Below are positions 7,194 to 51,582 of a stretch of DNA of 64,000 nt, piece after piece (the stretch's first letter is position 1; every line of letters begins with the position of its first letter). The notes beneath the pieces are model-generated. The model ran no database searches. It worked only from the letters and a program-made list of their open reading frames with translations, and was not told the DNA's origin. The stretch lies in NCBI GenBank assembly GCA_026002875.1, contig BPGE01000001.1, forward strand, positions 1,364,001 through 1,428,000, in the 5' to 3' direction. Made by a program: the position numbers and the translations under genes. The DNA is from Bryobacteraceae bacterium (GTDB lineage Bacteria; Acidobacteriota; Terriglobia; Bryobacterales; Bryobacteraceae).

Positions 7194-8066
7194 CTACGCC
7201 CGCGCCGCCCGCTGCCGCGCCCGGCTCACCGCCTGCTTCTGATACTCGAGAAACGCCGCCCCCAGCCGCTCCGCCACGCTCCAGTCCGTGCGGATGCTGA
7301 GCCCCTCCACCGCCGCCACCGGCAGAACATCGCGCGTCGTGGAGGTGATGAACAGCCCGTCGGCTTTTTCCAGATCTTCCAGCGTCAGCGTGCGCTCGGA
7401 GACGCGGATGCCCGGAACCTCGATCACTTCCAGCAGCAACTCCCGCGTGATGCCCGGCAGGCAGCCGGAACTCAGGGGTGGAGTCACTGCTTCATTGCCA
7501 TAGACGGCGAACACGTTGGCCGACGTGCACTCGCTCACCTCGCCGCGCTCGTTGAGCAGGATCATCTCGTCCAGTCCCTGCACGTGCGCTTCTTCATGCC
7601 ACACGAGGTTCATGGCCCAGGAAGCTGACTTCACGCCGGAGAACGGCCCTTCTGCGTGCCTGGCCTGCGGGACGATGCCGAGCCGCGCCGATGCGCCCCA
7701 CCGGGTCCGCGGCGCCGTAAACGCCACCAGATCGAAATCCCGGTCGAACCCCGGTCCCTCCCACAGCGTGCCGCGGTTGCGCATCACCAGCACGCGCAGA
7801 GCGGCATCGTAGGCCTGGTTCGCTTCGACCAGCCGCAGCAGCTCGGCCTCCAGCTCCTCGGGCGCCCAGGGGAAGGGAACCCGCAGCAGATCGGCGTCTT
7901 TCCGCATGCGCGCCCAGTGCCGCTCGAACGCGAACAGCACTCCGTCCATCACGCGGATCGTCGAAAACACGCCCCAACCCGCGAACAGACCCACCTGGCC
8001 CGCACGGAACAGCGCCTCATCCGCGCGGCGGATCTGACCGGAAAGCAGGAAGTACGGATGAATCAC
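7194..8066 (-). CDS. Aminotransferase class IV (branched-chain aminotransferase / aminodeoxychorismate lyase-like)
   Basis: 290 residues from GTG at 8066. PLP-fold type IV enzymes: the group includes IlvE, PabC and D-amino-acid transaminase. The Schiff-base Lys lies in GVKSASWAMNLVWHEEA; LSSGCLPGITRELLLE is the conserved PLP-phosphate region. EVSECTSANVFAVYGNEAVTPPL is also typical. IlvE-type versus PabC-type cannot be told apart safely; the short, rather divergent N-terminus (IHPYFLLSGQI...) and the lone genomic position leave both open. The GTG start has no Shine-Dalgarno site but has TACACT six bases upstream, suggesting a leaderless transcript. Diverges from the Gfo/Idh/MocA gene. Confidence 0.85.
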   Translation of the reverse strand: MIHPYFLLSGQIRRADEALFRAGQVGLFAGWGVFSTIRVMDGVLFAFERHWARMRKDADLLRVPFPWAPEELEAELLRLVEANQAYDAALRVLVMRNRGTLWEGPGFDRDFDLVAFTAPRTRWGASARLGIVPQARHAEGPFSGVKSASWAMNLVWHEEAHVQGLDEMILLNERGEVSECTSANVFAVYGNEAVTPPLSSGCLPGITRELLLEVIEVPGIRVSERTLTLEDLEKADGLFITSTTRDVLPVAAVEGLSIRTDWSVAERLGAAFLEYQKQAVSRARQRAARA

Positions 8067-8072
8067 ACAACC

Positions 8073-8078
8073 AGTGTA
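8073..8078 (-). promoter_or_regulatory. -10-like hexamer TACACT, leaderless start of the aminotransferase gene
   Basis: On the minus strand TACACT (8078 to 8073) is followed by 6 nt and the GTG start at 8066. No Shine-Dalgarno sequence between them. Confidence 0.45.
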
Positions 8079-8225
8079 AACAGCGCGGTCCGCGCAACGC
8101 TGAATGCACCACAGCAGAGTCGCGAATGATGGCGGGCGGTTCCGTCTGTCCCCAGGGACGCGTCCCGGCCCCTGCCCGGCGCGGCCCCAAAGTCCTGAGC
8201 CCCGCGGGCCGATTCGCTGCTCGCA

Positions 8226-8231
8226 TAGAAT
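8226..8231 (+). promoter_or_regulatory. -10-like hexamer TAGAAT before the Gfo/Idh/MocA gene
   Basis: TAGAAT at 8226-8231, 9 nt before ATG 8241, no Shine-Dalgarno; expected RNA start at about 8238-8241. The divergent gap also has a 12-bp palindrome GGGACGCGTCCC at 8155-8166. Confidence 0.45.
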
Positions 8232-8240
8232 GACGGCGTC

Positions 8241-9260
8241 ATGATGCGCAGGCGCGAATTTCTCACTTTGCCCGCACTGGCCGCGCAGCCGCGCCGCCTG
8301 CGGGCGGCGTTCCTCGGCGCGGCTCATTCGCACGCTTTCGACAAACTGCGGCTGGTGAAAGCGTCGCCGGACTACGAGCTGGCTGGCGTCTGGGAAGAGT
8401 CTCCGCCGGCGCGGAAGACGCTCGAGAAACTCGGCCCGCTCCCCTGGCGGCCGAAGAGCGAGATTCTGGCTGACCGCTCCATCGAAGTGATCTTCATTGA
8501 AAGCGATGTGCCGCAGATTCCGCTGCTGGCCATCGAAGCCCTGGAAGCTGGCAGGCACTGCCACATTGAGAAACCGATCGCCTACACGCGGGAGCGCCTG
8601 CGCCGCATCATCGAGCTGGCCCGGCAGAAACGGCTCATCATCCAGGGCGGCTACATGTGGCGCCACAACCCCGCCGTCGAGAAAGCTCTGGAAGCCGCTC
8701 GGCAGGGTTGGCTGGGCGACGTTTACCTCATTCACGCGCGCATGAACACGCTCATCGGCCCCGACCGGCGGCCGGAGTGGAACCGTTTCCCGGGCGGCCA
8801 GATGTTCGAGCAGGGCGCGCACCTCGTCGACATCGTGGTGCGGCTTCTGGGACGCCCGCAGCGCATCACAAGCTTTCTGCGCCATGACGGTCCGTTCGAG
8901 GACACTCTGAAGGACAACACGGCGGCGGTACTCGAGTACAGCCGCGCCATGGCCATCATCACATCCAGCGTGCTCCAGCCGAACGCCGGCCAGCACCGCG
9001 TGCTGGAAATCTTCGGTTCGAATGGCAATGCCGCGGTCCGGCCGATCGAGCCGCCACAGCTGGAAATCGATCTCGCGAAACCCGCCGGTCCCTACCGCGC
9101 GGGCCGACAGAAGGTGGATTTGCCGCCGTACGAGCGCTATGTCGGCGACATCGCCGCGCTGGCGCGCGCCGTGCGCGGCGAGCGCGCTCTGGAAACGACG
9201 GCGGAGACCGAACTGGCCGTCCACGAAACGCTGCTTGAAGCTTCCGGCATGGCTGGGTGA
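8241..9260 (+). CDS. Gfo/Idh/MocA family NAD(P)-dependent oxidoreductase
   Basis: 339 residues. N-terminal Rossmann domain (RRLRAAFLGAAHSHAFDK), slightly degenerate in the GxGxxG region (LGAAHS), then the family hallmark HIEKPIA (EKP motif, Lys contacts the substrate/nicotinamide) near residue 110, and C-terminal alpha/beta domain with GGQMFEQGAHLVDIVVRLLG, where the His is the catalytic base. Members oxidise or reduce sugars and related polyols, often secreted in acidobacteria. The start MMRRREFLTLPALAAQP resembles a truncated Tat leader, so export is possible. Downstream MFS gene begins at the stop codon, suggesting an operon and perhaps a shared substrate. Confidence 0.87.
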   Translation: MMRRREFLTLPALAAQPRRLRAAFLGAAHSHAFDKLRLVKASPDYELAGVWEESPPARKTLEKLGPLPWRPKSEILADRSIEVIFIESDVPQIPLLAIEALEAGRHCHIEKPIAYTRERLRRIIELARQKRLIIQGGYMWRHNPAVEKALEAARQGWLGDVYLIHARMNTLIGPDRRPEWNRFPGGQMFEQGAHLVDIVVRLLGRPQRITSFLRHDGPFEDTLKDNTAAVLEYSRAMAIITSSVLQPNAGQHRVLEIFGSNGNAAVRPIEPPQLEIDLAKPAGPYRAGRQKVDLPPYERYVGDIAALARAVRGERALETTAETELAVHETLLEASGMAG

Positions 9261-9301
9261 TCGCCCCTGCCAGAGCGCCGCCTTCATGCGACGATGGAGA
9301 T

Positions 9302-10525: not shown

Positions 10526-10526
10526 A

Positions 10527-15369: not shown

Positions 15370-16599
15370 ATGGCGAAGATCGAGCGCAGGAAGACCGTTT
15401 GCGTCAACGTGGGCGGTGTCAAAGTAGGCGGCGGGCATCCGATCGTCGTGCAGTCGATGACAAACACGGATACCGCCGATGTCACTGCCACGGTCAACCA
15501 GGTAATGGAACTGGCGCGCGCCGGTTCCGAAGTCGTCCGGATCACCGTTAACACCGAGGAAGCCGCCCGTGCCGTGCCCCGCGTCGTCGAGACGCTGGAC
15601 AAGTTCGGGTTCCGAACGCCGATCGTAGGGGATTTCCATTATAACGGCCACATCCTTCTGAAAAAGTACCCGGATTGCGCGAAAAGTCTCGCCAAATATC
15701 GAATTAACCCGGGAAATGTGAATATCGGCCGAAAAACGGATGAAAATTTCCGCACAATGATTGAATGCGCCCTCGACTACGGCAAGCCCGTGCGGATCGG
15801 CGTCAACTGGGGCTCGCTGGACTCGGCGCTGCTGACACGCATGATGGACGAGAACGCCCGCCTGCCGGAGCCTCTGGACGCGGCCGAAGTGACGAAAAGG
15901 GCCATCGTCGCCAGCGCGCTCGAGTCGGCGCGGATGGCGGAGAGCTATGGGCTCCCTCATGACCGCATCATCCTCAGCGCAAAAGTGTCCGGCGTGCAGG
16001 ACCTGATCGACGTGAACCGGATGCTGGCGGCGCAGTGCGATTACCCCCTGCACATCGGCCTCACCGAGGCTGGCATGGGCGCCAAGGGCATCGTCGCGAC
16101 CACGGCGGCGCTGGCCGTGCTCCTGCAGGAAGGCATCGGGGACACGATCCGCGCGTCGCTGACTCCCGCGCCGAACGGCGACCGCACCGAGGAGGTGCTC
16201 GTCTGCCAGCAGATCCTGCAATCTCTCGGCATCCGCAGCTTCACCCCGCAGGTGACGGCATGCCCGGGTTGCGGGCGCACCACCAGCACGTTCTTCCAGG
16301 AGATGGCGGAGCAGATCCAGACCTACCTGCGCGAGCAGATGCCTCTCTGGAAGGAGCGCTACCCGGGCGTCGAAGAGATGAAAGTGGCCGTGATGGGCTG
16401 CATTGTGAACGGTCCCGGCGAATCGAAGCACGCCAACATCGGCATCTCGCTTCCGGGCACCTTCGAGGAGCCCAAGGCGCCCGTGTTCGTCGACGGTCAG
16501 CTCGTCAAGACGCTGCGCGGCGAGGGAATCGTGGCCGAATTCATCGCCATGCTGAACGACTACGTCGAGCGGAAGTACGGCGCGGCGGCCGTGCGCTGA
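15370..16599 (+). CDS. ispG: 4-hydroxy-3-methylbut-2-en-1-yl diphosphate synthase (flavodoxin/ferredoxin)
   Basis: 409 residues. Penultimate step of the MEP isoprenoid pathway: MEcPP to HMBPP by a [4Fe-4S] reductase. The cluster ligands Cys298 and Cys301 (ACPGCGRTT), Cys344 ([10 protein letters not shown]) and Glu351 are in place. N-terminal TIM barrel with [13 protein letters not shown]. Start at ATG 15370 (MAKIERRKT) preferred over 15349 because of its position after the promoter and GGAGGTG, although spacing is short. Two-domain bacterial type without the plant/Chlamydia insert. Monocistronic. Confidence 0.96.
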
Positions 16600-16737: not shown

Positions 16738-19008
16738 TCAGAACACCCGGATCGTGTACGCGAAGCGGATGCCGCGCCCCAGCTCCGGCGCGATGTCTTT
16801 GACGAAGTTCAGGTGGTTCCGGTACAGGCGGTTCCCGAGGTTGAACGAGCTCACGTTGAACGTGTGCAGGACGTGGCCGCGCGTGAATGAATACGACGCA
16901 TTGACGTGGAACACGGTGTAGCCGGCCGTGGGATCCTCGTTCGGGGCCACCTGCCACTGGCGGTTCGCCATCACCAGCTCGGGCCGCAAGCTGAGGCCTT
17001 TCCAGAAATAGTCCAGCCCGAGGCGCCCTCGCGCAGGCGGGATGCGCGGCAGGTTCATGCGGTCTGCGGCGGTCAGGTTCGCGTCGACATAATCGAACCC
17101 GGCCAGCGCCCACAGAGGCCCCTTCACGCGCGCCTGCACGCGCGCTTCGGCGCCCGTGAATCGCGAGTCCGCCTGCGCGAACAGGTTGACCGGCAGCCCG
17201 TCGTCAAACTCGCCCGTGGGCAGGAAGTACACGAAATCGTGCATCTGATAGCGGAACAGGTTCGCCTCGGCGCGAAGATTGCGGCCCTGGTGGCGCAGAC
17301 TCATTTCGACGCCGTCGCCGCGCTCGCGCCTCAGATCCGGGTTGCCGATCTCGAAGGCCAGGTTGCCCGGATGCGGGCCGTAGTTGTAGAGCTCCTCCAG
17401 CGCCGGTGCGCGGTAAGAATGAATGTAGTTCGACACCAGCGAGCCGTTGTTCCACAGCGGCAGCATCAGGCCGGCTGAAGCGGAAAGGCCGGAAAACGTC
17501 CGCTCCCGCAGCCCGTCCGGCGTATAGCGGTTGCGCTCCCACCGGCCGCCGAACTGCAGCCGCGCGCGCTCCCAGCTGAACTCTTCGAGTCCGAACAGCG
17601 CGATCGCCGCATGATCCACCGGCGGCGCCAGCGCCTCCGCTCCGCGCGTCTTGTAGTCCCGCTGAAGACCCCAGAAGCCGAATCGCCCCGACCATGGCCC
17701 GCGCCTGCGCTGATCGAAGATGCCCATGTAGGTGAACTGTTTGTTGAAGAACTCCGTGCCCACCTTGCCTTCTTCAATCTCGCGGTGCGAGTAGTCCGAA
17801 TAGCCGAGATCGAACTGGAACTGCTCAAAAGCCGGGCCGGCCTGTTTCAGGGCTCCGTTGAACCGGAAGTTCGTGCGGACCATGTTCAGGACCGGATTTT
17901 CGTGCTGGCCGTGATCGTCGTCATCGCCGCCGAAGGGCCGAAGCAGTGCGAGGCGAGACAGGGCGTGCTTCTCGTCGTGTTCCTCGTGATGGCCGTGGCC
18001 GCCGGGCACTCCGTAAGTGGTCTCGATGCGGTGGAGCGTCGCGTTCCAGCTGAGCCGCCCGCCATAGCGTCCCAGGCCCGCCTTGGCGTTCGTCATTTCG
18101 GTGAAAGAATTCTCGATTCGGCCAATCGGCGTATTGTAATCGCCCGTCCGCATGCCGCCGCCGGAGCCGTACACCAGCCAGTTTTTATACCCGTACTCGA
18201 ACGAGCCGCTGCCGCCGCCCTGCGCGTTGGCCGTGCCGCCCACGCCCGTCAGAGCCATGTGCAGGCCCTGGTGCGGATGCTGGTTGATCACATGGTGGTC
18301 GGTGAGCACGTTGACCACGCCGCCGATGGCGTTGGAGCCGTACAGCAGCGTGGCCGGGCCTTTCACCACCTCCACGCGCTCGATGTTGAGCGGATCCACC
18401 GGCTCGCCATGGTCGCCCGATTGCGACGAAATCGTCCCCGTGCGCATGCCGTCCTGCAGGATAAGCACGCGGTCGCCGTCGAAGCCGCGGATCACCGGCC
18501 GCGTCGAGCCCGGACCGTAGCTGCGCCGCGCCACGCCCGCCTCCTCGCCCACCAGGTCGCCCAGGGACGTCGAAGAGCTGCGCGCCGTCAGCTGGTAGCC
18601 GTCGAGCGAAACGACGCTGAGGAAAGCGTCCGCCGTGCTCTCCTCGCGCCCGGACGCGGTGACCGTGAGCGACTCCCGCAGCGGACTGACGGTCAGCGCG
18701 AAATCGGCGCGCGCCGTTTCGCCTGCCTGCACGCGCACCGTCTTGCGCTCGTCCACCAGTGCGTGGACGTGGGCCAGCAGCGAGTACTCGCCCGGCGCCA
18801 GTCCGGCGAACCGGTAATTGCCCTCGGCGTCGCTCTCGACGATCCGTCCTCCCGGCGTCAGCAGCACCGAGGCTCCGCGCAGAGGCTCGCCGCTGCCGGC
18901 GAAGGTCACCTTCCCCTCGATGACTGCTCCGCCCTGAGTTTGTGCGGCCAGCACTTGCCAGAAAAGAAACTGCATGGCCAGGAAATGCGAAATACTTCTC
19001 AGAAACAT
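16738..19008 (-). CDS. TonB-dependent outer-membrane receptor, His-rich (ZnuD-like, zinc candidate)
   Basis: 756 residues. Signal peptide (1-23), a carboxypeptidase-regulatory Ig-like domain (about 27-105, VIEGKVTFAGSGEPLRGASV), plug domain (about 120-230, with RPVIRGFDGDRVLIL and VEVVKGPATLLYGSNAIGGVVN) and a 22-stranded-type barrel ending in ...RFAYTIRVF with C-terminal Phe. His/Asp-rich loops stand near 240 (HHVINQHPHQG), 336-350 (GGHGHHEEHDEKHA) and 360-370 (GDDDDHGQHE). Such loops mark ZnuD-type zinc receptors; this is inference, and copper or nickel are possible. Convergent with ispG. At 19002-19019 GAAACATAATCCTATTTC is a weak dyad over the start codon, unlike a certain Zur box. Confidence 0.88.
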   Translation of the reverse strand: MFLRSISHFLAMQFLFWQVLAAQTQGGAVIEGKVTFAGSGEPLRGASVLLTPGGRIVESDAEGNYRFAGLAPGEYSLLAHVHALVDERKTVRVQAGETARADFALTVSPLRESLTVTASGREESTADAFLSVVSLDGYQLTARSSSTSLGDLVGEEAGVARRSYGPGSTRPVIRGFDGDRVLILQDGMRTGTISSQSGDHGEPVDPLNIERVEVVKGPATLLYGSNAIGGVVNVLTDHHVINQHPHQGLHMALTGVGGTANAQGGGSGSFEYGYKNWLVYGSGGGMRTGDYNTPIGRIENSFTEMTNAKAGLGRYGGRLSWNATLHRIETTYGVPGGHGHHEEHDEKHALSRLALLRPFGGDDDDHGQHENPVLNMVRTNFRFNGALKQAGPAFEQFQFDLGYSDYSHREIEEGKVGTEFFNKQFTYMGIFDQRRRGPWSGRFGFWGLQRDYKTRGAEALAPPVDHAAIALFGLEEFSWERARLQFGGRWERNRYTPDGLRERTFSGLSASAGLMLPLWNNGSLVSNYIHSYRAPALEELYNYGPHPGNLAFEIGNPDLRRERGDGVEMSLRHQGRNLRAEANLFRYQMHDFVYFLPTGEFDDGLPVNLFAQADSRFTGAEARVQARVKGPLWALAGFDYVDANLTAADRMNLPRIPPARGRLGLDYFWKGLSLRPELVMANRQWQVAPNEDPTAGYTVFHVNASYSFTRGHVLHTFNVSSFNLGNRLYRNHLNFVKDIAPELGRGIRFAYTIRVF

Positions 19009-19695: not shown

Positions 19696-19701
19696 TATGA
19701 T
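19696..19701 (+). promoter_or_regulatory. -10-like TATGAT, leaderless start of the hybrid kinase gene
   Basis: TATGAT at 19696-19701, 8 nt before the GTG start at 19710. No Shine-Dalgarno. Confidence 0.4.
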
Positions 19702-19709: not shown

Positions 19710-22403
19710 GTGCGGAAAGCCAGGCAGCCACGCGACTTCGGCGGCCGGAAAGCTGGGGCCTCACTTCTGCTGCCGCTGCTGATGGCAACGGCGGTGTTGC
19801 ACGCACAGCGGCCCCCTTCGGTGCGGAGCGCAGAAGTCCTGATCCTCCATTCGTACGATCCGGCCTACGACTGGTCCTCCGAGGTCACGCTCGGGTTGAA
19901 AGCGGCTCTTGAGGAACAGCCGCTTCAGATCTCCATCTGGACCGAGTATCTGGACTCGCGGCGCTCGAAGCCGGCCCAATCGTGGGCCTGGATGAACCGC
20001 GTTCTGACGGAGCGTCACGCCGGACGGCGTTTCGACGTCATCATCGCGTGCGACGACGCTGCAGTCGAGTACCTGCTCCATGGCGCGCCCGCCGGATTGC
20101 AGGGCGTGCCGGTGGTTTTCTGCGGCGTCGGATCGCAGCAACTGTTCGACCGTCTGCCGCGGGAGCGGTTCACGGGTGTCAGGGAGATTTCGTCTGCCTC
20201 GGATTTCCTGGATGCCTGTCTCCGCTTTCTGCCCGGGACGCGCACGGTGGCGGTGATCACCGACAATTCGCCGACCGGCGCCGAACACCACGCCTTTTAC
20301 CGGGAGATCAGCCGCGCGCGTCCCCGCCTCGAATTCCGGTTCCTGGAAGGGGCGCATCTGCCCGTCGAGCAGATCCTGCAACAGGTGCGCGCGCTTCCGC
20401 CGGACTCCCTGGTCGTGCTCACCCACTTCACAAGAGACGCCCGGGGCGAGTACGTGAGCCCGCGCTGGATGGCCCAGAAGGTGGCGGAGGCGAGCGCAGC
20501 GCCGGTGATCAGCCCGCACCTCCGGCTGCTGGGGCAGGGAATTCTGGCCGGCAATACAAGCGCCGGTTTCATGCACGGGGAGATTGCGGGGAGGATGGCC
20601 GTCGAGGTTCTGCATGGCGTTGCGCCCTCCGCCATCCCTCTGCGCGAGCATGGCAACATCCGGCTGATCATCGACGACAGCGTGGCCGATCGATGGAACA
20701 TCCCGCGCTCTCTTCTGCCGGCGGATGCCGAGATCATCGGGGAAACCGGCGGCTGGCGCGCGCTGCGGTCTGCCGACCGCCGCCTGCTGTGGGCGGGCGG
20801 CATCCTCGTCGTGTTGCAGATGTTGACGATTCTCGTCCTGATCATCAACATCCTGCTGCGTCGCCGGGCGGAGCGCGAACTGAAGGAAAGCCGCGAGATG
20901 CTGGACCGCGCCCAGCGCACCGCGCACATCGGCCTCTGGAGCCGGGATCCAGCCTCCGGAAAGCTGGTCTGGTCTGAGGAAGTGTACCGGATGCTCGGCG
21001 CCGATCCGGCCTCGTTACGGCCCTCCTTCGAAGCTTTCCTTTCCTTCGTCCATCCAGCGGACCGCCAGCGCGTGGAGGCCATCGTCCGGGCCGGCGACGC
21101 CCGGCGCCAGAGCCGTCTGCTCGAGTTCCGCGTCCTTCTTCCCGGAGGCGTAGAGCGCCATATCCGGAGCACAGGAGAGTGGGTCACCGGTCCGGACGGA
21201 AAGCCGCGGGTCGTGGGAATGGTGCAGGACATCACCGAGCTGAAGCAGACCGAAGAACTGCTGCAGCAGATGCAGCGGATGGAATCCGTGGGGACGCTGG
21301 CCGGCGGCGTAGCCCACGATTTCAACAATCTGTTGACCGTAATCAACGGCTACAGCCAGATGCTCGCGGCCTCGCTGGCGCCCGGCGATCCGCGTTCGCA
21401 GCAGGTGCGCGAGATCCAGCGCGCCGGCGAGCGCGCCGCGGAGCTGACGCGGCAGCTGCTTGCCTTCAGCCGCAAACAGATCCTCTCGCCCCGCCTGTTC
21501 GATCTGAACGAACTGCTGCGAGAAAGCGAGGGGCTGCTGAAGCCCGTCGTGGGAGACCGCGTGCAGCTCGAGTTCGATCTGTCCGCGCAGTTCTGCCTCG
21601 TGCATGCCGACCCGTGGCAGATCGAACAGGTTCTGATCAACCTGGCGGCCAACGCCCGCGATGCGATGCCCCGCGGCGGCTGGCTCCGCATCCGCACCGC
21701 CGCGCTGCTCATGAAGGAGTTCTCCGGCATTGCGGACGAGATGATCGTTCCGGGCCGCTACGTCGAACTCACGGTCTCCGACAATGGCTGCGGCATGGAC
21801 GAAACCACGCGGCGGCGCGTCTTCGAGCCGTTCTTCACGACCAAACCCGAAGGCAAGGGCACCGGCCTCGGCCTGGCGACCGTGTACGGCATCGTGCGCC
21901 AGAGCGGCGGCTGGATCACGGTAAGCAGCGAGCCCGGCGCCGGGACGACTTTCCGTATCCTGCTGCCTTCGGCCGAAGGCGCCTTGCCCAAGGGTGATCC
22001 CGGCGGTCCTCAGGCGGCCGCGGAAGGGGGGCGCGTGGTTGTGCTGGAGCATCACCCCCAGACCGGTGAACTCATCAACCTGGCTCTCCGCCAGGCCGGC
22101 TACGAAGTGGAATTCGCACCGGACGAGCAGGGGCTCTCGACGATGATCGAGACAGCGCCGCAAGACAATCCTGTCCGGGTGCTCCTCGTGGATCTTCGGA
22201 TGCCGCACATTTCCGGCTTCGACCTCGTGAGGCGCCTGCGACGCCAGCATCCTCATTTGCGGGCCCTGCTGCTGTTCAATGAATCCGGCGGAGTGCGCGA
22301 TGCAGCGCTGGAAGAAGGCGAGGCTGTTCTGGGTGCCCCGGTCACTCCTTCCTCGCTCGCTGCAGCGGTTCGATCGCTGATGGCGCAACCCGCGGCCGGC
22401 TGA
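19710..22403 (+). CDS. Hybrid sensor histidine kinase (periplasmic binding domain, PAS, kinase, receiver)
   Basis: 897 residues, GTG start. Signal/anchor helix at the N-terminus, then a periplasmic domain resembling ABC-type substrate-binding proteins (VRSAEVLILHSYDPAYDWSSE; about 40-345), one membrane helix (about 358-385, GGILVVLQMLTILVLIINILL), PAS (about 400-510, IGLWSRDPASGKLVWSEEVYRMLG), HisKA with phosphoacceptor H in GGVAHDFNNLL (about 535), HATPase_c (N box NLAANARDAM, G1 DNGCGMD, G2 GKGTGLGLA), and C-terminal REC with Asp828 (LLVDLRMPHISG). It senses a periplasmic ligand. No cognate response regulator is adjacent, so it is an orphan. Confidence 0.92.
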   Translation: MRKARQPRDFGGRKAGASLLLPLLMATAVLHAQRPPSVRSAEVLILHSYDPAYDWSSEVTLGLKAALEEQPLQISIWTEYLDSRRSKPAQSWAWMNRVLTERHAGRRFDVIIACDDAAVEYLLHGAPAGLQGVPVVFCGVGSQQLFDRLPRERFTGVREISSASDFLDACLRFLPGTRTVAVITDNSPTGAEHHAFYREISRARPRLEFRFLEGAHLPVEQILQQVRALPPDSLVVLTHFTRDARGEYVSPRWMAQKVAEASAAPVISPHLRLLGQGILAGNTSAGFMHGEIAGRMAVEVLHGVAPSAIPLREHGNIRLIIDDSVADRWNIPRSLLPADAEIIGETGGWRALRSADRRLLWAGGILVVLQMLTILVLIINILLRRRAERELKESREMLDRAQRTAHIGLWSRDPASGKLVWSEEVYRMLGADPASLRPSFEAFLSFVHPADRQRVEAIVRAGDARRQSRLLEFRVLLPGGVERHIRSTGEWVTGPDGKPRVVGMVQDITELKQTEELLQQMQRMESVGTLAGGVAHDFNNLLTVINGYSQMLAASLAPGDPRSQQVREIQRAGERAAELTRQLLAFSRKQILSPRLFDLNELLRESEGLLKPVVGDRVQLEFDLSAQFCLVHADPWQIEQVLINLAANARDAMPRGGWLRIRTAALLMKEFSGIADEMIVPGRYVELTVSDNGCGMDETTRRRVFEPFFTTKPEGKGTGLGLATVYGIVRQSGGWITVSSEPGAGTTFRILLPSAEGALPKGDPGGPQAAAEGGRVVVLEHHPQTGELINLALRQAGYEVEFAPDEQGLSTMIETAPQDNPVRVLLVDLRMPHISGFDLVRRLRRQHPHLRALLLFNESGGVRDAALEEGEAVLGAPVTPSSLAAAVRSLMAQPAAG

Positions 22404-24809: not shown

Positions 24810-24815
24810 TATCAT
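24810..24815 (+). promoter_or_regulatory. -10-like TATCAT, leaderless start of pgm
   Basis: TATCAT at 24810-24815, exactly 7 nt before ATG 24823. No ribosome site. It supports 24823 over the ATG at 24814, which lies inside the hexamer. Confidence 0.45.
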
Positions 24816-24822: not shown

Positions 24823-26460
24823 ATGGCACTGCACCCCCTGGCCGGCCAGCCCGCTCCGCCGGAGTTCCTTGTCGATATCGACAAGCTCGTCGCTGCTTAT
24901 TACGAGAACGCGCCGGACATGAGCGACCCGCATCAGCGGGTCAGCTTCGGCACCAGCGGCCACCGCGGGACATCGCTGCAGGCGACGTTCACGGAGGCGC
25001 ACATTCTGGCCATCGCTCAGGCGATCTGCGAGTACCGCCGCGGGCGCGGCTACACGGGCACGCTGTTCATGGGCAAGGACACGCACGCATTGTCTGGACC
25101 GGCAGAGCGGACGGCCATCGAGGTGTTCGCCGCCAACGGCGTGGACGTGGCCATCGAGCAGGACGGAGGCTGCACGCCGACTCCGGTGATCTCGCACGCC
25201 ATCCTGCAGGCCAACCGCGGCGGCGGCGCGGTGTGCGATGGCGTCGTCATCACTCCAAGCCACAATCCGCCCGCGGACGGAGGCTTCAAGTACAACCCGC
25301 CGGATGGCGGACCGGCGGGCTCGGACGTCACGTCGTGGATTGAGCGGCGCGCCAACGAGCTGCTGCTGGAAGGGAACCGGGGCGTGCGGCGCATGCCCTG
25401 CGAGGAAGCTCTGCGCTCCGGCCACGTCCGCCGGATCGATTTCGCGCAAAGCTACATTGACGAGCTGGCGACGGTGATCGACATGGACGCGATCCGCGCC
25501 GCGGGGCTGCGCATCGGCGTCGATCCGCTGGGCGGCGCAGCCGTGCACTACTGGGCGCGGATCGCGGAGCGCTATGGGCTGAACCTGACGGTGGTGAATC
25601 CGCGCGTGGATCCGGCGTTCGCGTTCATGACGCTGGATCACGATGGCAAAATCCGCATGGACTGCTCGAGTCCTTACGCGATGGCGGGCCTCGTGAGCCT
25701 GAAGGACCAGTTCGACGTGGCGTTCGGCAATGATCCCGACACGGACCGCCATGGCATCGTCACTCCCAGCGGCGGCCTCCTGAATCCGAATCATTACCTG
25801 TGCGCGGCCATCCGCTATCTCTGCACGCACCGTGATGGATGGCCGAAGGCGGCGCGAATCGGCAAGACGCTTGTGTCGAGCGGCATCATCGACCGCGTGG
25901 CCGCGGCTGTGGGGCGCGACGTGTGCGAGGTTCCCGTGGGCTTCAAGTGGTTCGCGCCGGGGCTGTTCGATGGCTCGCTGTGTTTCGGCGGGGAAGAGAG
26001 CGCGGGAGCGAGCTTCGTGCGGCGCGACGGCACGGTGTGGACCACCGACAAGGACGGCATCATTCTGGGATTGCTCGCCTGCGAGATCACGGCCGTCACT
26101 GGCCGCGACCCGGCCCTGCATTACCGCGAGATCGAGAACGAACTGGGCCGCTCCTTCTACACGCGCATCGACACGCCGGCAGAACCGGAGCAGAAGGCGA
26201 AGCTCGCAAAACTGGATGCCAGCGCCGTCACGGACTCCGAGCTGGCCGGCGATCCGATCACCGCGAAACTGACGGCGGCGCCGGGCAACGGCGCGCCCAT
26301 CGGCGGGCTGAAGGTGGTGACGGCGGGCGGCTGGTTCGCGGCGCGCCCGTCAGGCACCGAGAACATCTACAAGCTCTACGCCGAAAGCTTCCGCAGCCAG
26401 GAGCATCTGCAGAAGCTGGTGGAAGAGGCGCGGGCGCTGGTGCTGCGCGCGCTGCGGTGA
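24823..26460 (+). CDS. pgm: Phosphoglucomutase (alpha-D-glucose-phosphate specific)
   Basis: 545 residues, four-domain phosphohexomutase interconverting glucose-1-P and glucose-6-P. Start ATG 24823 ([11 protein letters not shown]) aligns with the E. coli start MAIHNRAGQPA and puts the phosphoserine at Ser146 (TPSHNPP) as in the E. coli enzyme. Mg-binding loop [11 protein letters not shown], sugar-binding loop [11 protein letters not shown] and phosphate-binding RPSGTEN are intact. Links glycogen and nucleotide-sugar pools to glycolysis. Monocistronic; convergent with the membrane protein 5 bp away. Confidence 0.96.
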
Positions 26461-26464: not shown

Positions 26465-27175
26465 TCAATCCAGCGCGGCGATCTCGCCGGGCACGATCTT
26501 GCGCGTGCGCGGCAGGTAGCCGCGGTAGCTCAGATAGCCGACACCCGCCAGAAGCCCGGTGAAGACCACCAGCTTGAGAATGTCCGTCGCACGGTTGAGC
26601 GGCAGCGTCTTCCAGAGAATGCCGAGCACGGGCTGCGCGATGCACATGGCCCACACGGTTCCGTAGAAGTAGCGGCGCTCGTCGCCTTCTCCTGCCGTGG
26701 AGGGTTTGACGCGCGGCAGCTTGCCCGTCAGCCCGAGAATCCAGATGGGCACGGCGATGGGGAAGTAGCCGTACCAGTAGATCTGCTTCAGCATCCACTT
26801 GCCCGTGACGACCGCCACGGCAAGCCCGATCAGGTTCAGCAGTCCGTAGGAGATGGCTGCGCTCCAGGCGAACGTGTAGCAGATGCGCCGGTACAGGGGA
26901 TTGGGCTTGTCTTCGGTAAAGCGGATGATGTACGGAGCGGGCTCGCAGCCCGGCAGTTTGCCGCGCAGCCCGGCAATGCCTGTTCCCGCAAGCACCGCCG
27001 CCAGCCACCATGTCATGCTGCCGCCGAATCCCTGTTCGAACAGCCGGAACACCATCGGTCCGGGGATCAGGAAGAACACGAAGATCCAGATGGGCCAGTG
27101 GTTGAAGCGGTAGTACAGCTTGTTCCGCGTGCGGATTTTGCGCTGGCTGGCCAGCTCGATCTTGACGTCACCCAT
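26465..27175 (-). CDS. Six-helix membrane protein of unknown function
   Basis: 236 residues from ATG 27175 with GGAAGG 5 nt upstream; a longer frame (27196) is less likely. Helices start near PIWIFVFFLIPGPMVFRLF, TWWLAAVLAGTGIAGL, AWSAAISYGLLNLIGLAVAVV, YFPIAVPIWILGLTG, FYGTVWAMCIAQPVLGILW and ILKLVVFTGLLAGVGYLSY, with a basic N-terminus (QRKIRTRNKLYYRFNHW) inside. Not a recognised transporter. Divergent from the SDR gene; no metabolic clue. Confidence 0.75.
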   Translation of the reverse strand: MGDVKIELASQRKIRTRNKLYYRFNHWPIWIFVFFLIPGPMVFRLFEQGFGGSMTWWLAAVLAGTGIAGLRGKLPGCEPAPYIIRFTEDKPNPLYRRICYTFAWSAAISYGLLNLIGLAVAVVTGKWMLKQIYWYGYFPIAVPIWILGLTGKLPRVKPSTAGEGDERRYFYGTVWAMCIAQPVLGILWKTLPLNRATDILKLVVFTGLLAGVGYLSYRGYLPRTRKIVPGEIAALD

Positions 27176-27218
27176 ACAAACCTTCCAGTGTGCCACAGCC
27201 GGGCGGCGCAGCTGGCGG

Positions 27219-27224
27219 TAGAAT
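27219..27224 (+). promoter_or_regulatory. -10-like TAGAAT, leaderless start of the SDR gene
   Basis: TAGAAT at 27219-27224, exactly 7 nt before ATG 27232; no Shine-Dalgarno. It excludes the ATG at 27223, which lies in the hexamer. Confidence 0.45.
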
Positions 27225-28969: not shown

Positions 28970-29003
28970 TTGACATCTGGCTCTGAAGTGTAAACAATTA
29001 CAG
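28970..29003 (+). promoter_or_regulatory. lexA promoter with SOS-box-like operator
   Basis: TTGACA at 28970-28975, 17-bp spacer, AACAAT at 28993-28998, then 6 nt to the lexA ATG. The operator GTGTAAACAATTACAG (28988-29003) matches the E. coli pattern CTGT-N8-ACAG except for its first base and contains a dyad TGTAA-N4-TTACA. It covers the -10, as expected for autorepression. Could also affect the divergent DUF72 gene. Confidence 0.65.
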
Positions 29004-29629: not shown

Positions 29630-29635
29630 TATACT
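29630..29635 (+). promoter_or_regulatory. -10-like TATACT before the zinc-ribbon gene
   Basis: TATACT at 29630-29635, 6 nt before ATG 29642; no Shine-Dalgarno. So the small gene probably has its own leaderless promoter after lexA. Confidence 0.45.
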
Positions 29636-34613: not shown

Positions 34614-35932
34614 GCATCACCGCGGAGTTCTTCAAAGATTTCGGCCACCCCGATCAGCCGTTCGTCCTCGTAGGGCGCGCCGATGAACTGCACGCCCACG
34701 GGCATCCCTTCGCCGTTGACTCCGGCGGGCGCCACCATGGCGGGCAGGCCCAGCAGATTGGCGGGCGTGAGCGGACGCGCCGCATCCAGGACCGGAATGG
34801 GGGGCTGCCTGTGCGGGAAGGCCGCCGTGCCAAAGGCGGGCGCCACCACCACCGTTTCTGCATCGAGATGCTCGAGCAGGCGGGCGCGCATCACGTCGCG
34901 CTCGGCCAGCACGGCCAGCAGGCGCTCCGTGCTGACGGTTTCGCGCGCTTCCTGCATCAGAGCCACGCCCGTCCACGCGCACTCGTGTTCGCGCCCGGCG
35001 ATCATCGCGCGGAGGCTCTGCGTGATCAGGTCCACGAAAAGCACGCGCCACAGCTCGTGCGCCCCTTCGATCAGCCGCTTGTCGAAATCCGCTTTGCCGA
35101 AGCCGCCCTGCCAGAGCCGCTCCGCCGTGCGGACCGCCGCCGCGGCGCACTCCGGGCGCACGCCGTCGGGCAGCCAGAGGGCGATCTTCGAGCGCCGGAC
35201 ATCGGGGCTCTGCAGGGCCAGGGGAGCGCTGAACGGGTCGCGAACATCCCAGCCGGCCAGTGTTTCAAACAGAAGACGGACGTCGCGTGCAGTGCGGGCC
35301 ATGGGCCCGCCGGCGCCCATGAAGCCGGCTGGGTGGCCGAGCACCGGCCAATGGCCGCCCCCGCCCACGCGGCCGGGCGTCGGCTTGAGGCCGCAGATGC
35401 CGCAGAAATGGGCCGGTTCGCGGATGGAGCCGCCGCCGTCGCTGCCGATGCCGCCTGCGCTCATGAAGGCTGCAATGGCCGCCGCCTCGCCGCCGCTGGA
35501 GCCTCCGGCCGTGTACCCGGAATTCCAGGGATGGCACGTGCGTCCGATGATGCGGTTGTCGGTCTCGTAGTAGTACAGAAACTCGGGCGTGGACGTCTTG
35601 CCAATGACGATGGCGCCGGCCGCTTTCAGCCGCGCCGCGGCTGTGGAATCCCGCGCCGCCCGCTCCCCGCGCCGCAGCAGGCTGCCGCAATACGTCACTC
35701 GGCCCTCGAGGTCGAAACTGTCCTTGACGGTGACCGGAATGCCTGCCAGAGGGCCGCGTACGTGCCGCCGCGCCGCAAGACGGGCTTCATCTGCGTAGAC
35801 CTCGATAAAAGCATTCACGCGCGGATTTGTTTCGGCGATCGCGGCCAGGTGCGCCTCCACGAGTTCCTGTGCGCTGACGCCGCCCCTTTCCAGCGCCTCC
35901 CGCATCCGCCACAGCGGCAGCCGGTTCCACAT
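34553..35932 (-). CDS. Amidase-signature family amidase
   Basis: 459 residues. Ser-cisSer-Lys triad: Lys70 (VTVKDSF), cis-Ser145 ([11 protein letters not shown]) and nucleophile Ser169 ([10 protein letters not shown]). Hydrolyses an amide; could be a generic amidase or a GatA-like paralogue, but no GatB/GatC are near, so not tRNA amidation. The C-terminal part (about 440-459) is encoded in the overlap with the protease gene. -10-like TAGGCT (35944-35939) is 6 nt before the ATG, suggesting a leaderless mRNA and a divergent arrangement with moeA. Confidence 0.88.
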
Positions 35933-35938
35933 GCTTCC

Positions 35939-35970
35939 AGCCTAGCAATGCGGAACCCCGCTGCTACAAT
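35939..35970. promoter_or_regulatory. Back-to-back -10 elements, amidase (minus) and moeA (plus)
   Basis: Minus strand: TGCTAGGCT, hexamer TAGGCT at 35944-35939, 6 nt before the amidase ATG. Plus strand: TGCTACAAT, hexamer TACAAT at 35965-35970, 7 nt before a GTG at 35978. Both have the extended TGC. The two -10s are 20 bp apart, so the promoters must overlap. Confidence 0.45.
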
Positions 35971-35977
35971 GGCGCAT

Positions 35978-37171
35978 GTGGCGGCGTTGACGTTCGAACA
36001 GGCGCGCGCGGAGGTGCTGAAACGCGTGTCGGCGCGCGCGGCGCGGCCGGCGGTGGCGACGGTTCCTCTGGACGAGGCGTGCGGAAGGGTGCTGGCCGAG
36101 ACGGTGCCGGCGGATCGCGATTACCCGCCGGAGCCGCGGTCAATGCGCGACGGCTTCGCGCTGCAGGCGGCGTCGGCGCCCGGAGAATTGCGGGTTCTCG
36201 GCGAGGTCCGGGCGGGGGAACCGTGCCGCTTCCGTGTCGGTCCTGGCGAGGCTGTGGAGATCATGACCGGCGCAACGGTGCCCGAAGGCGCCGATGCCGT
36301 CGTCATGGTCGAGCACGTTTCCGTCTCCGATGGCCGTCTGCGTGTTCCCCAGCCGGTCGAGCCCGGCGCCAACATCAGCCCGCGAGGATCAAGCCTCCGC
36401 GCCGGCGCCTGCGCGGTGGAGGGCGGTACGCGGTTGACGCCCGCGTCCACGGCGCTGCTGGCCGCGGTCGGAGCGGCGCAGGTTCCCGTCTTCGCGCGCC
36501 CCCGCGTGGCCATCCTGCCCACGGGCGACGAGCTCGTCGACATCGGACAGCGGCCCGAGCCCTGGCAGATCCGCAACTCCAACTCGCATGCGCTGGCGGC
36601 GCAGGTGCGGCGGGCGGGCGGAGAGCCGGTCGTCCTGCCGCCGGTGAGGGACCGGCTGGAAGATACGGTGGAAGCGCTCGAAGAGGCGCTGAAACAGGAT
36701 CTGGTTCTTTTGTCGGGCGGCGTTTCGGCGGGCAAGTACGATCTGGTGGAGCAGGCGCTGGAGCGGTTCGGCGCGGTCTTCTATTTCGACCGGGTGCTGA
36801 TCCAGCCAGGGCAGCCCTGCGTGTTCGGACGCGCAGGGGAGACGTTCTTCTTCGGGCTGCCCGGCAATCCGGCCTCCACGTTTGTCTGCTTCGAAATCTT
36901 TGCGCGGGCGGCTCTGGATCTGCTGGGGGGCGTGGCAAGGCCGCAGCTGCCCTTCGCGCTGGCCGTTCTCGGCGAGCCTTTCCGGCACAAGCCGGGACTG
37001 ACGCGCTTCCTTCCGGCGCGGCTGGAAGACGGCGCGCGGCTCCATCCGATCGCGTGGGGCGGCTCGGGCGACGTGCGCGCGCTGGCGGGGGCGAACTGCT
37101 TTCTGGTGGCCGATCCGGACCGGCCGCAATACGAGGCCGGCGAACTGATCCGCGTGCTGATGGCCGTATGA
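35978..37171 (+). CDS. moeA: Molybdopterin molybdenumtransferase
   Basis: 397 residues from GTG 35978; ATG 35969 would add 3 residues but falls in the -10 hexamer TACAAT. MoeA inserts molybdate into MPT-AMP to give Moco. MoeA-N domain, MoCF-biosynthesis domain with [29 protein letters not shown] and LPGNPAST, and a C-terminal domain. Not fused to MoaE or MoaC. First of moeA-moaC-mogA with 4-bp overlaps, serving the molybdenum hydroxylase at 2.8 kb among other enzymes. The protein is close to standard MoeA length (411 in E. coli). Confidence 0.92.
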
Positions 37172-40528: not shown

Positions 40529-40550
40529 CACTTCATCATAATGTGAAGTG
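40529..40550. promoter_or_regulatory. Dyad CACTTCA-N8-TGAAGTG over the MEMO gene promoter
   Basis: Perfect 7-bp arms (40529-40535 and 40544-40550). The minus-strand -10 TATGAT (40540-40535) lies between and partly in the arm, 6 nt before the ATG. Could be a repressor operator, and also serve phhB on the other strand (54 bp away). Confidence 0.45.
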
Positions 40551-46520: not shown

Positions 46521-46529
46521 GGATTCCAG

Positions 46530-46535
46530 ATTCTA
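46530..46535 (-). promoter_or_regulatory. -10-like TAGAAT before the symporter gene
   Basis: Hexamer 9 nt before ATG 46520; a short or leaderless mRNA. Confidence 0.4.
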
Positions 46536-48110: not shown

Positions 48111-48144
48111 GGCGGAACTCCGGCACCCAGCCTCGATTCCTCTC

Positions 48145-48172
48145 GAGCCGGCCTCCGAGCCGGCTCTTTTTC
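48145..48172 (+). terminator. Rho-independent terminator of the TPR gene
   Basis: Stem GAGCCGGC / GCCGGCTC, loop CTCCGA, then T5. Stands 34 bp after the stop. Confidence 0.85.
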
Positions 48173-48175
48173 TTG

Positions 48176-48424: not shown

Positions 48425-48429
48425 ACCTG

Positions 48430-48765: not shown

Positions 48766-48770
48766 GACGG

Positions 48771-49256
48771 TCACATCTTGTAGCGGCCGAAATCCTCGTC
48801 GTTCAGGCCTTCCAGCCAGCGCTTGAGTTCTTCGTTGCCGCTCTTCTCCGCCATGCTTGCGGCGCTCTTGCTGCTCTTCAGCACTTCTTCGTCGACGTAG
48901 ATCGGGCAATCGACGCGCAGCGCCAGCGCCAGGGCGTCTGAAGGACGGGAATCGATCGAGATCAGCTCGCCGTTGCGCTCCAGCCAGATCACGGCGTAAA
49001 ACGTGTCTTCTTTCAGCTCGCTGACCACCACCTTCCGGACCCCTGTTTCCAGCCCCAGCAGGACGTTCTTGATCAGGTCGTGCGTCATCGGGCGCGGCGT
49101 GGCGACTTTCTCGATCTCGAGCGCGATGGCGTTGGCTTCGTAGATCCCCACCCAGATCGGCAGCACCTGCGTGCCGGCCAGGTCCTTCAGGATCACGATG
49201 GGCATGTTGGTCACCGGGTCCATCATCAGGCCCCGGATCTTCATTTCGATTTCCAT
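48771..49256 (-). CDS. DUF151 (bifunctional nuclease domain) protein
   Basis: 161 residues. MKIRGLMMDPVTNMPIVILKD...LPIWVGIYEANAIALEIEKVATPRPMTHDLIKNVL and FYAVIWLERNGELISIDSRPSDALALALRVDCPIYVDEEVL are signatures of the BFN domain (plant BBD1 and bacterial relatives with reported RNase/DNase activity). Helical C-terminus (about 130-161) is an extension. Cytoplasmic. 15 bp downstream of miaB. Confidence 0.92.
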   Translation of the reverse strand: MEIEMKIRGLMMDPVTNMPIVILKDLAGTQVLPIWVGIYEANAIALEIEKVATPRPMTHDLIKNVLLGLETGVRKVVVSELKEDTFYAVIWLERNGELISIDSRPSDALALALRVDCPIYVDEEVLKSSKSAASMAEKSGNEELKRWLEGLNDEDFGRYKM

Positions 49257-49271
49257 CTGGCGCCGCCTTCC

Positions 49272-50606
49272 TTACACCGCTATAGCACACTCGCCAGCCA
49301 GCGAGTTCGGGCCCGCCCGCGTCACCCGCACGGGCAGGTAGCGGCCGAACATCTCCTCTTTCGCCGGCGCGCTGCCGTCCGGACGCGGCCGCGTGACGAA
49401 GTTCAGCACGCGGTTCTGCGTCGTGCGGCCGATCCACTGCCCCGTCGAGCTGTTGAAGCCTTCCACCAGCACTTCCTGCACCGTGCCCACCTGCGCCGAG
49501 TTCCGGCGCAGCTGGATCTGCCGCTGCTTCTCCTGCAGCTCGGCGAGCCTGCGCGATTTCTCCTCTTCCGGAATCTGGTCGCCCATCTTCCGGGCGGGCG
49601 TGTTCGGCCGGACCGAGTATTTGAAGCTGAACACCTGGTCGTATTCGACTTCCTCGAGCAGCCGCATCGTCTGGCGGAAGTCTTCTTCCGTCTCCCCAGG
49701 AAAGCCGACGATGATGTCCGTCGAAAGCGAGATGTTGCGCGGCGAGGCCTTCAGCCATTCAATCCGCCGCATGTACTCCTCTCGCGTGTACTGCCGCTGC
49801 ATGGCTGCGAGCACGCGGGTCGAGCCGCTCTGCACCGGCAGATGGACCATGTTGCAGACCGTCTCGTTGCGGTCGATCACTTCCACGATGTCGCGGCCGA
49901 AATCGCGCGGGTGGGACGTCGTGAACCGCACGCGCCGGATGCCCGGCGTCTGCGCCACGGCTTCCAGCAGCGGCGCAAACGTGCGCTGCGGGTCCTGCGG
50001 GTCGCGGTAGCTGTTCACATTCTGCCCGAGAAGCTGGATCTCGGTGTAGCCCATGCCCGCCAGCGTGCGCGCTTCTTCCAGCACCGATTCCCACCGCCGG
50101 CTGCGCTCGCGCCCGCGCGTGAACGGCACCACGCAATAGGCGCAGTCCTTGTCGCAGCCCTCGATGATCGTGATGTAGGCGCGGTAAGGGTTGTCGCGGC
50201 GCGTCACGGGCGTTTCGAACGTTGCGTCCGTGTCCAGGCTGAGCCCGGCGGCGCGCCCGCCGCCCTGCTCGATCTGCACCAGCAGCTCGCCCAGCCGCGG
50301 ATAGCTGGCCGAGCCCACCACGAGCCGCACGTGCGGGGCCTTCTCGAAAATCTTTTCCCCTTCCTGCTGCGCCACGCAGCCCAAAACGCCAAAGATCTTG
50401 TCCTTTGCGCGGCGGTTTTCGTTCAGCCGCTGAAACACCTTCTGCTCGGCCTTGTCGCGGATGCTGCACGTGTTGTACAGCACCAGGTCGGCCTCTTCCG
50501 GCGTGTGCACCTGCACATAGCCCCTCTGCTCGAGCGTGCCGATCACTTTCTCGGAATCGTGCACGTTCATCTGGCAGCCGAAAGTCTCGATATAGAAACG
50601 CTTCAT
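49272..50606 (-). CDS. miaB: tRNA-2-methylthio-N6-dimethylallyladenosine37 synthase
   Basis: 444 residues. Radical SAM methylthiotransferase. N-terminal MTTase cluster Cys11, Cys47 and Cys77 (FGCQMN, YNTCS, LGCVAQ), radical SAM Cys151, Cys155 and Cys158 (CDKDCAYC), C-terminal TRAM domain (about 375-440). MiaB rather than RimO by ETFGCQMNVHDSE and LGQNVNSY. First gene of a minus-strand unit: miaB, DUF151, 111-residue protein, 82-residue protein. Confidence 0.95.
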   Translation of the reverse strand: MKRFYIETFGCQMNVHDSEKVIGTLEQRGYVQVHTPEEADLVLYNTCSIRDKAEQKVFQRLNENRRAKDKIFGVLGCVAQQEGEKIFEKAPHVRLVVGSASYPRLGELLVQIEQGGGRAAGLSLDTDATFETPVTRRDNPYRAYITIIEGCDKDCAYCVVPFTRGRERSRRWESVLEEARTLAGMGYTEIQLLGQNVNSYRDPQDPQRTFAPLLEAVAQTPGIRRVRFTTSHPRDFGRDIVEVIDRNETVCNMVHLPVQSGSTRVLAAMQRQYTREEYMRRIEWLKASPRNISLSTDIIVGFPGETEEDFRQTMRLLEEVEYDQVFSFKYSVRPNTPARKMGDQIPEEEKSRRLAELQEKQRQIQLRRNSAQVGTVQEVLVEGFNSSTGQWIGRTTQNRVLNFVTRPRPDGSAPAKEEMFGRYLPVRVTRAGPNSLAGECAIAV

Positions 50607-50700
50607 AGCCCAGCGGGGAGTGTCACTTCCATTCTAGCGTGAAGGCGCGCGCCGTCCCGTCGCAGGGAAGATGACAACAATCCGGGCTTTCTTCGGAGGC

Positions 50701-51567
50701 TCAGGCGTCGTTACCGGAAGGCGGGACGCCGCTGCGCTTCCTTCGCCGCCGCCACCACGCGGCCGCGATCAGCCCCACGCCTGCGGGGATCCAGACACTC
50801 GGTTCGGGCACGGCGCTGACCTGATACTGCGTCAGCAGAACCGTGCTGCCGGGAATCGTGAACGCGCCAGACCGGACCTGGAAGTTGTCGAACTCGAAAC
50901 CCGTGGACGTCGTGCCAGAGTTGTCCAGCACCACGCGGTTGAATGCCAGCTCGCTTGCCCGGAACATGACGTAGGCATAGTATTCGCCGGAGTTCGGCCG
51001 GGGCGTCGTGCCCGGCTTTCCCAGGTATGCGCTGGTCTGGTACACGGTGTTGTTCTGCGCCGTCAGCGTGGGCGATGCGCTGAACAGGGCAATCATGTCA
51101 GCCCCGCTGATGCGCATCAGAAACCTGCTGTCATCGTACAGGCTGACGCCATTGTACTGGTCGATCGCCGACCACCACATCCCGAAAAACGTCGTCGGGC
51201 TCGTCAGGTTCAGCGTGATGGCGCCAGACGTTCCGCTCTGCGCCCCGATCGCACCGTATCGTCCGCTGTTGCCCGCGCCGCCGTACTGATTCGAGGAAAC
51301 GATGCTCAGAGCGCTCTGCGGGGAGAGGTCGAACGTGCCGATGATCCGCGTCTGGTCAGTCGTGTAGGTGCCCGTGCGCCAATTCGGGCTGGAGCTGAAG
51401 TTTTCGTTCACTGCTGTCCCGCCCGTCGCCGGACTGCTGACCACGCCCGGCGCCGCCACGTAGACTGAAATGCTGATGGCGCTGCACGGGAGAGCGCCCG
51501 CCAGCAGCACGACGAGGGCTGCTGCCGCCCCACACGATTGAAAACCCCGAAGCAGGTGAAAATTCAT
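50701..51567 (-). CDS. PEP-CTERM sorting-domain protein
   Basis: 288 residues. N-terminal signal (AAAALVVLLAGALPCSA), a Ser/Thr/Gly-rich beta-sandwich-like body (about 35-255), and the C-terminal sorting signal VPEPSVWIPAGVGLIAAAWWRRRRKR: PEP motif, hydrophobic helix, Arg cluster. So exported and processed by an exosortase (none here). Body is likely exopolysaccharide or surface-associated. TAGAAT lies 9 nt before the ATG. Confidence 0.92.
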   Translation of the reverse strand: MNFHLLRGFQSCGAAAALVVLLAGALPCSAISISVYVAAPGVVSSPATGGTAVNENFSSSPNWRTGTYTTDQTRIIGTFDLSPQSALSIVSSNQYGGAGNSGRYGAIGAQSGTSGAITLNLTSPTTFFGMWWSAIDQYNGVSLYDDSRFLMRISGADMIALFSASPTLTAQNNTVYQTSAYLGKPGTTPRPNSGEYYAYVMFRASELAFNRVVLDNSGTTSTGFEFDNFQVRSGAFTIPGSTVLLTQYQVSAVPEPSVWIPAGVGLIAAAWWRRRRKRSGVPPSGNDA

Positions 51568-51576
51568 TCGTCTTTC

Positions 51577-51582
51577 ATTCTA
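51577..51582 (-). promoter_or_regulatory. -10-like TAGAAT before the PEP-CTERM gene
   Basis: Hexamer 9 nt before ATG 51567, no Shine-Dalgarno. Confidence 0.4.

Follow-up and report, generated by a model that had tools for sequence, protein, structure and literature searches.

The DNA analyzed here is a 64,000-nt stretch (positions 1,364,001 to 1,428,000; hereafter, the window) of the genome of a Bryobacteraceae bacterium (Acidobacteriota; assembly GCA_026002875.1, contig BPGE01000001.1), and the elements in question are hexamers of the form TANNNT that stand 6 to 9 nt before the start codons of 11 of its genes. The original prediction had listed them, together with a weaker AACAAT before lexA, as a signature of leaderless transcripts, and all 12 hexamers are present in the sequence with the spacings and start codons claimed for them (Table 1). 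The genome is a single contig of 4.86 Mb, rated 100% complete, in which one 16S gene was found; over 1,495 bases this gene is 93% identical to its counterpart in Bryobacterales bacterium F-183 and 80% identical to a Streptomyces 16S gene. Its 3' end reads CACCTCCTTT, so the anti-Shine-Dalgarno sequence is intact. Among the 80 loci listed for the pgm protein, the best match came from a Bryobacterales metagenome-assembled genome (76%); the records next in rank carried mixed labels. We place the genome in the Bryobacterales.

Table 1. Hexamers preceding start codons in the window, elements of the lexA promoter region, and two further TGTAA-N4-TTACA copies
Element	Position	Strand	Placement	Gene or remark
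TACACT	8073..8078	-	6 nt before GTG 8066	aminotransferase class IV, Pfam PF01063
TAGAAT	8226..8231	+	9 nt before ATG 8241	Gfo/Idh/MocA (Pfam)
TATGAT	19696..19701	+	8 nt before GTG 19710	hybrid histidine kinase
TATCAT	24810..24815	+	7 nt before ATG 24823	pgm
TAGAAT	27219..27224	+	7 nt before ATG 27232	SDR
TATACT	29630..29635	+	6 nt before ATG 29642	53-aa zinc-ribbon protein
TAGGCT	35939..35944	-	6 nt before ATG 35932	amidase
TACAAT	35965..35970	+	7 nt before GTG 35978	moeA
TATGAT	40535..40540	-	6 nt before ATG 40528	MEMO
TAGAAT	46530..46535	-	9 nt before ATG 46520	sodium:solute symporter
TAGAAT	51577..51582	-	9 nt before ATG 51567	PEP-CTERM protein
TTGACA (-35)	28970..28975	+	17 nt before AACAAT	lexA
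Palindrome GTGTAAACAATTACA	28988..29002	+	overlaps lexA -10; 2 nt before ATG 29005	lexA; TGTAA-N4-TTACA copy
AACAAT	28993..28998	+	6 nt before ATG 29005	lexA; AATAAT in four relatives
TGTAA-N4-TTACA copy	L230 1501-1515
TGTAA-N4-TTACA copy	L039 4065-4078

Enrichment of the hexamer before first genes

Start codons were called blind, that is, from coding potential and codon type alone, with upstream motifs ignored. Transcription units were guessed from gene spacing: a gene counted as the first of its unit if it was divergent from its neighbor or lay more than 50 nt behind it, and as internal if the gap to the preceding neighbor was 50 nt or less. Genes at the edge of a stretch, genes without a neighbor on the stretch, and genes shorter than 240 nt were excluded before counting. 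Held-out DNA of the same genome came from outside the window and comprised 400 kb in 20 pieces of 20 kb each, in which 281 of the 305 called genes were retained; 200 kb each of Streptomyces coeruleorubidus (positive control) and Escherichia coli K-12 (negative control) went through the same pipeline. Sampling depth was 160 to 400 kb per genome, and the relatives from the same genus are designated G001, G002, G003, and G004.

Within the window, TANNNT was found 6 to 9 nt before some candidate ATG or GTG in 11 of 29 first genes, and eight other 4-nt spacing ranges gave 1, 1, 0, 1, 1, 2, 2, and 1 such genes; among internal genes there was a single case in 22. With one blind start per gene, the hexamer was found in 5 of 30 first genes. 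In the held-out DNA, with blind starts, 28/172 first genes carried TANNNT at this spacing, versus 5.8 expected as the mean over nine other spacing ranges (1, 6, 11, 6, 6, 7, 5, 3, and 7 genes; Poisson P = 3e-11). This is a 4.8-fold enrichment, and the excess amounts to 12.9% of first genes for the strict hexamer and a blind start. Accepting any plausible start raised the count to 40/172, versus 7 to 14 in seven other ranges. The reversed hexamer ANNNTA was flat and not enriched. The Streptomyces control showed the hexamer in 11 of 107 first genes (1.4 expected), and the E. coli control in 4 of 112 (7.9 expected).

The motif was also recovered de novo by expectation-maximization (EM) with a mixture model in which one motif was seeded as a Shine-Dalgarno (SD) sequence and the other at random, using four seeds. 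Three of four seeds converged on TAtaaT with a spacing of 6 to 7 nt in the held-out DNA, and two of four on TAcAaT in G002. The best of four random seeds for Streptomyces was TAcggT, again at 6 to 7 nt, while E. coli yielded a second SD-like motif rather than TANNNT. The mixture weight (0.40 of first genes) was considered as an estimate of the leaderless fraction and dropped, since three shuffles of the same upstream regions also gave arbitrary motifs weights of 0.20 to 0.36.

Features of the hexamer genes

Pooling the window and the held-out DNA under a retrained model gave 28 hexamer genes among 203 first genes. An SD run of at least 4 nt was present in only 3 of these 28, compared with 68/175 other first genes (Fisher P = 0.003) and 71/128 internal genes. 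The same held for G002, with 3/21 hexamer genes versus 69/164 others (P = 0.016), so that the claimed lack of an SD site is borne out as a scarcity. The start codons of the 28 genes were 25 ATG, 3 GTG, and no TTG, versus 118, 45, and 12 for the other first genes. Most hexamer genes also lacked a recognizable -35 element, as had been claimed: there was no excess of TTGACA, with a mean match of 2.21/6 compared to 1.96 to 2.36 at six shifted positions, and only 1 of the 28 had at least five TTGACA matches at 16 to 18 bp. In -10/GGGA (discriminator) promoters, known from work on Thermus, a G-rich element lies just after the hexamer. A G directly followed the hexamer in 19 of the 28 genes, and in 6/7 cases, partly of the same genes, in the 226-kb-class stretches of G001, G003, and G004; the discriminator idea is unproven.

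Start codons of the genes in the window

Of the 11 TANNNT genes, five received their proposed start from the blind caller as well (8066, 8241, 24823, 35932, and 46520), and so did lexA; the pgm start at 24823, which the hexamer had been said to resolve, is thus selected from coding potential as well. The caller took a different in-frame start in five cases and did not call the 53-aa zinc-ribbon gene. Its later starts include 19821, 51411, and 40501. For two proteins, the hybrid kinase (start at 19710) and the PEP-CTERM protein (51567), the N terminus encoded from the proposed start resembles a signal peptide by eye, and the blind start removes it. Start codons and N termini thus shift in practice when the hexamer is taken into account.

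For SDR and moeA the -10 sequence ends in AT and is followed by G, which creates an ATG that the gene caller chose; for SDR this is the ATG at 27223, made of the last two bases of TAGAAT and the next G. Such a false ATG derived from the -10 sequence was considered as a genome-wide pattern and rejected: it occurred in 0/172 held-out first genes, 9/185 in G002, and 6/112 in E. coli, which leaves these two cases as anecdotal.

Conservation in the genus

The portions of the window common to the four genus relatives showed about 77 to 86% identity. The pgm hexamer was present in 4/4 relatives as TATCAT or TATGCT with a spacing of 7 nt, and that of SDR (TAGAAT, 7 nt) was identical in 4/4. The amidase and moeA hexamers were kept in both relatives that align there, and those of MEMO, the symporter, and the PEP-CTERM gene in the single aligning relative, G004, in which MEMO starts with GTG instead of ATG while the hexamer and the spacing are unchanged. 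The TATACT of the zinc-ribbon gene was kept in two of four relatives and lost in the other two. In pairwise alignments, 16 of 18 site-by-relative pairs retained the T, A, and T of the hexamer, compared with 36 to 49% for any intergenic triple. The PEP-CTERM site, which falls between two alignment blocks, was left out of this count; the sites at 8066, 8241, and 19710 lie outside the alignment blocks longer than 300 nt in the stretches compared and were left out of the comparison altogether.

Three intergenic regions of the window have features of their own. The amidase and moeA genes (35932 to 35978) are divergent, with 45 bp between their starts and two -10 elements back to back; the -35 position (17-bp spacer) of either promoter coincides with the -10 of the other, and both hexamers are kept in G003 and G004. 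At 27175 to 27223, another divergent gene pair has in common a block, CGGCTGTGGCACACTGGAAGGTTTGTATGG (minus-strand reading), which is largely constant in five genus members and is apparently conserved beyond the needs of the two starts. Upstream of the 50606 gene (minus strand; radical-SAM/TRAM protein), a TAGAAT stands 24 nt before the start and is kept in all three genomes compared (its own, G004, and G002). With no evident SD sequence between it and the start, this looks like a short-leader rather than a leaderless promoter, as far as its layout can tell.

Probable leaderless promoters and alternative readings

The motif, its spacing, its strong bias toward first genes, the lack of SD and -35 sequences, and the conservation in the genus are read directly from the DNA. 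On this basis we consider it very probable that the hexamers serve as -10 elements in leaderless promoters, most of which have no -35, as originally proposed; the spacing peak at 6 to 7 nt, the TATAAT-like motif found de novo, the few SD sites, the missing -35, the genus conservation, and the two signal-peptide-like N termini all support it. From these features we infer the transcription start, the sigma factor, and the mode of translation. The housekeeping sigma factor would recognize the hexamers as -10 elements, in most cases with no -35 to accompany them; with 6 to 9 nt separating them from the start codon, RNA synthesis would start on the A/GTG or no more than about three bases away. Such an mRNA would have neither a 5' leader nor an SD site, and its translation would probably rely on 70S ribosomes (or IF2-loaded 30S subunits) binding the 5'-terminal start codon. 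Many other genes of the same genome use SD initiation.

Several observations weigh against this reading. Other intergenic TANNNT sequences in the window were often kept as well (24/34), so that being conserved does not by itself single out the 6- to 9-nt spacing. Not all EM seeds found the motif: two of four for G002, and one of four for the genome under study, settled on others that scored lower. G002 showed neither the preference for ATG (15/21 hexamer genes versus 122/164 others, with one TTG among the hexamer genes) nor the G after the hexamer (7/21). Furthermore, internal genes were also enriched, with 8/109 versus 1.7 expected in the held-out DNA and 10/134 versus 1.1 expected in G002. 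The original prediction had stated that genes inside operons rely on overlaps or a good ribosome site instead; with these counts, the operon rule becomes a tendency and is not absolute.

Some enrichment in internal genes would also be expected if the hexamer were not a promoter but a translation signal, i.e., an A/U-rich or S1-binding patch in leadered mRNAs. The hexamer does lie in the zone of ribosome contacts, and AT-rich patches before start codons are discussed as possible S1 sites for some phyla (PMC5397173). Such a patch is, however, hard to reconcile with a -10-like hexamer that has a fixed T1, A2, and T6 and a sharp spacing peak, with the flat reversed hexamer, or with the similar motif and spacing in Streptomyces, and in Deinococcus radiodurans a ribosome-binding site could not take the place of this motif (PMC12340547). 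We regard this explanation as quite improbable. A mere chance origin, with a reader free to choose among starts, draws on the shortness of TANNNT, and chance would indeed account for about 6 of the 28 held-out cases. Its probability is negligible in view of the 4.8-fold held-out enrichment with blind starts, the 11/29 first genes in the window versus 0 to 2 at other spacings, and the rediscovery of the motif from random seeds.

The proposed starts could also be misplaced, the true ones lying downstream with an SD sequence and the hexamers being -10 elements of ordinary leadered promoters. Leadered -10-like elements do occur, such as that of the 50606 gene, and the blind caller departs from the proposed start in several cases. 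However, misplacement would not produce a spacing peak at 6 to 7 nt, the coding-potential caller agrees with 5/11 proposed starts, and for two of the later blind starts the proposed start adds a signal-peptide-like N terminus. We hold this to be highly improbable, and retain the leaderless promoter as the preferred reading.

Distribution in Acidobacteriota

Pooled, the genomes of the phylum sample show the TANNNT signal (56/694 first genes in the seven non-genus samples versus 26.2 expected; P = 3e-7), which is mostly weaker than in the genus (Table 2). The excess ranged between 2.1 and 9.2% of first genes in these seven samples, compared with 8.9% in Streptomyces, 12.9% in the genome studied here, and 8.0% in G002. 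EM yielded a motif unlike TANNNT in its best seed of four for G012, G064, G073, G097, F-183, and G030, and a weak tAggaT for G016; recovery of the motif de novo was thus limited to the genus and Streptomyces, and weakly G016.

Table 2. First genes with TANNNT 6 to 9 nt before the start in other Acidobacteriota
Sample	Observed	Expected	Remark
G002 (same genus)	21/185	6.1	excess 8.0%
G016 (order)	12/184	7.1	singly not significant at 0.05
G012 (family)	8/94	4.4	singly not significant at 0.05
G064 (class)	7/96	5.0	singly not significant at 0.05
G073	8/83	2.2
G097	5/89	2.2	singly not significant at 0.05
F-183 (Bryobacterales)	7/78	2.7
G030	9/70	2.6	excess 9.2%

It is conceivable, although rather doubtful, that leaderless promoters without a -35 have spread in this genus until their share resembles that of Streptomyces, with the anti-SD sequence intact and bS21 present. 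The excess in G030 overlaps the genus range and weakens this hint. If the expansion were true, the gain and loss of leaderless expression could be traced among close relatives. Absence of bS21 is a correlate of leaderless use in Actinobacteria. A search did not find bS21 in the Streptomyces control, unlike in Acidobacteriota, where 79 of 80 genomes have it, including the one studied here. Leaderless use in this phylum therefore does not go with bS21 loss, which is ruled out as a correlate.

Relation to known systems

The signature is not new in kind. Whether it had been described for this phylum was left open by the original prediction, and it had: leaderless genes were predicted computationally for Acidobacteria in 2011 (Zheng et al.; PMC3160421, Table 2), in 3/3 genomes, with a mean of 13.3% and a range of 9.7 to 19.4%. 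The consensus is the same TANNNT, with its first T some 12 bp upstream of the start, and was strongest in high-GC groups; it is also argued there that only the transcript-proximal gene can be leaderless. That study, however, covered three other Acidobacteria genomes and gives percentages of genes, whereas our 12.9% is an excess among first genes. The occurrence of the architecture in Deinococcus and actinobacteria, as had been noted, agrees with the Streptomyces control and with PMC12340547 (2025). In Deinococcus-Thermus, TANNNT lies about 6 to 7 bp before the open reading frame (ORF) and serves to correct start codons; TANNNT alone acts as a promoter, a -35 enhances it, and RNA rises after the motif. 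The difference is that the motif was tested by experiment there and concerns about 30% of ORFs in another phylum. The same paper scans the whole bacterial domain, and its main text does not name Acidobacteria. Mycobacterium and Streptomyces (PMC3898074, PMC4633059, and PMC4895711) likewise have mixed genomes with leaderless genes and TANNNT, the difference being that start-site data are available for these organisms, along with ribosome data for some. GeneMarkS-2 predicted leaderless transcription in 21.6% of bacterial species, as quoted in PMC9581028, and SD pairing in acidobacterial classes is treated in PMC10783764. A search of the open-access literature found no transcription-start map for Acidobacteria, and for transcription start sites of Acidobacterium capsulatum just a riboswitch paper.

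The present work adds sequence evidence, backed by held-out DNA and controls, for a complete acidobacterial genome in which leaderless and SD genes coexist. The main additions are the controls, the footprints in the genus, the correction for lexA given below, and the hint, weakened by G030, of heavier use in the genus.

The lexA promoter and its palindrome

The lexA gene had been counted among the leaderless cases. Its AACAAT does stand 6 nt before the ATG, and yet it is not of the same kind as the others, as it has a TTGACA and sits in a palindrome, GTGTAAACAATTACA. Exact matches to the 15-mer GTGTAAN4TTACA lie at three separate sites of the genome; one belongs to lexA, and another ends 14 nt upstream of the recA ATG (Pfam RecA, E = 1e-129). 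The shorter TGTAA-N4-TTACA has four copies in the genome and three in each of the four relatives, with a copy at lexA in all five; in G002 it also precedes a recA-like gene, with the same N terminus by eye. Since it recurs before recA, the palindrome is probably a LexA operator (SOS box); for lexA itself, the more fitting reading is a promoter that has a good -35 and is overlapped by this putative operator. The lexA of Acidobacterium capsulatum is reportedly of the alphaproteobacterial type (the title of a 2006 report by Mazon), from which our palindrome apparently differs. A literature search on LexA motifs in Acidobacteria did not find the palindrome named in the titles or the beginnings of the abstracts among the matches listed. 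In G064, a relative from the same class, four TGTAA-N4-TTACA sequences lie within 2.1 kb (L179 16208-18339) as two pairs, at 16208 and 16311 and at 18242 and 18326.

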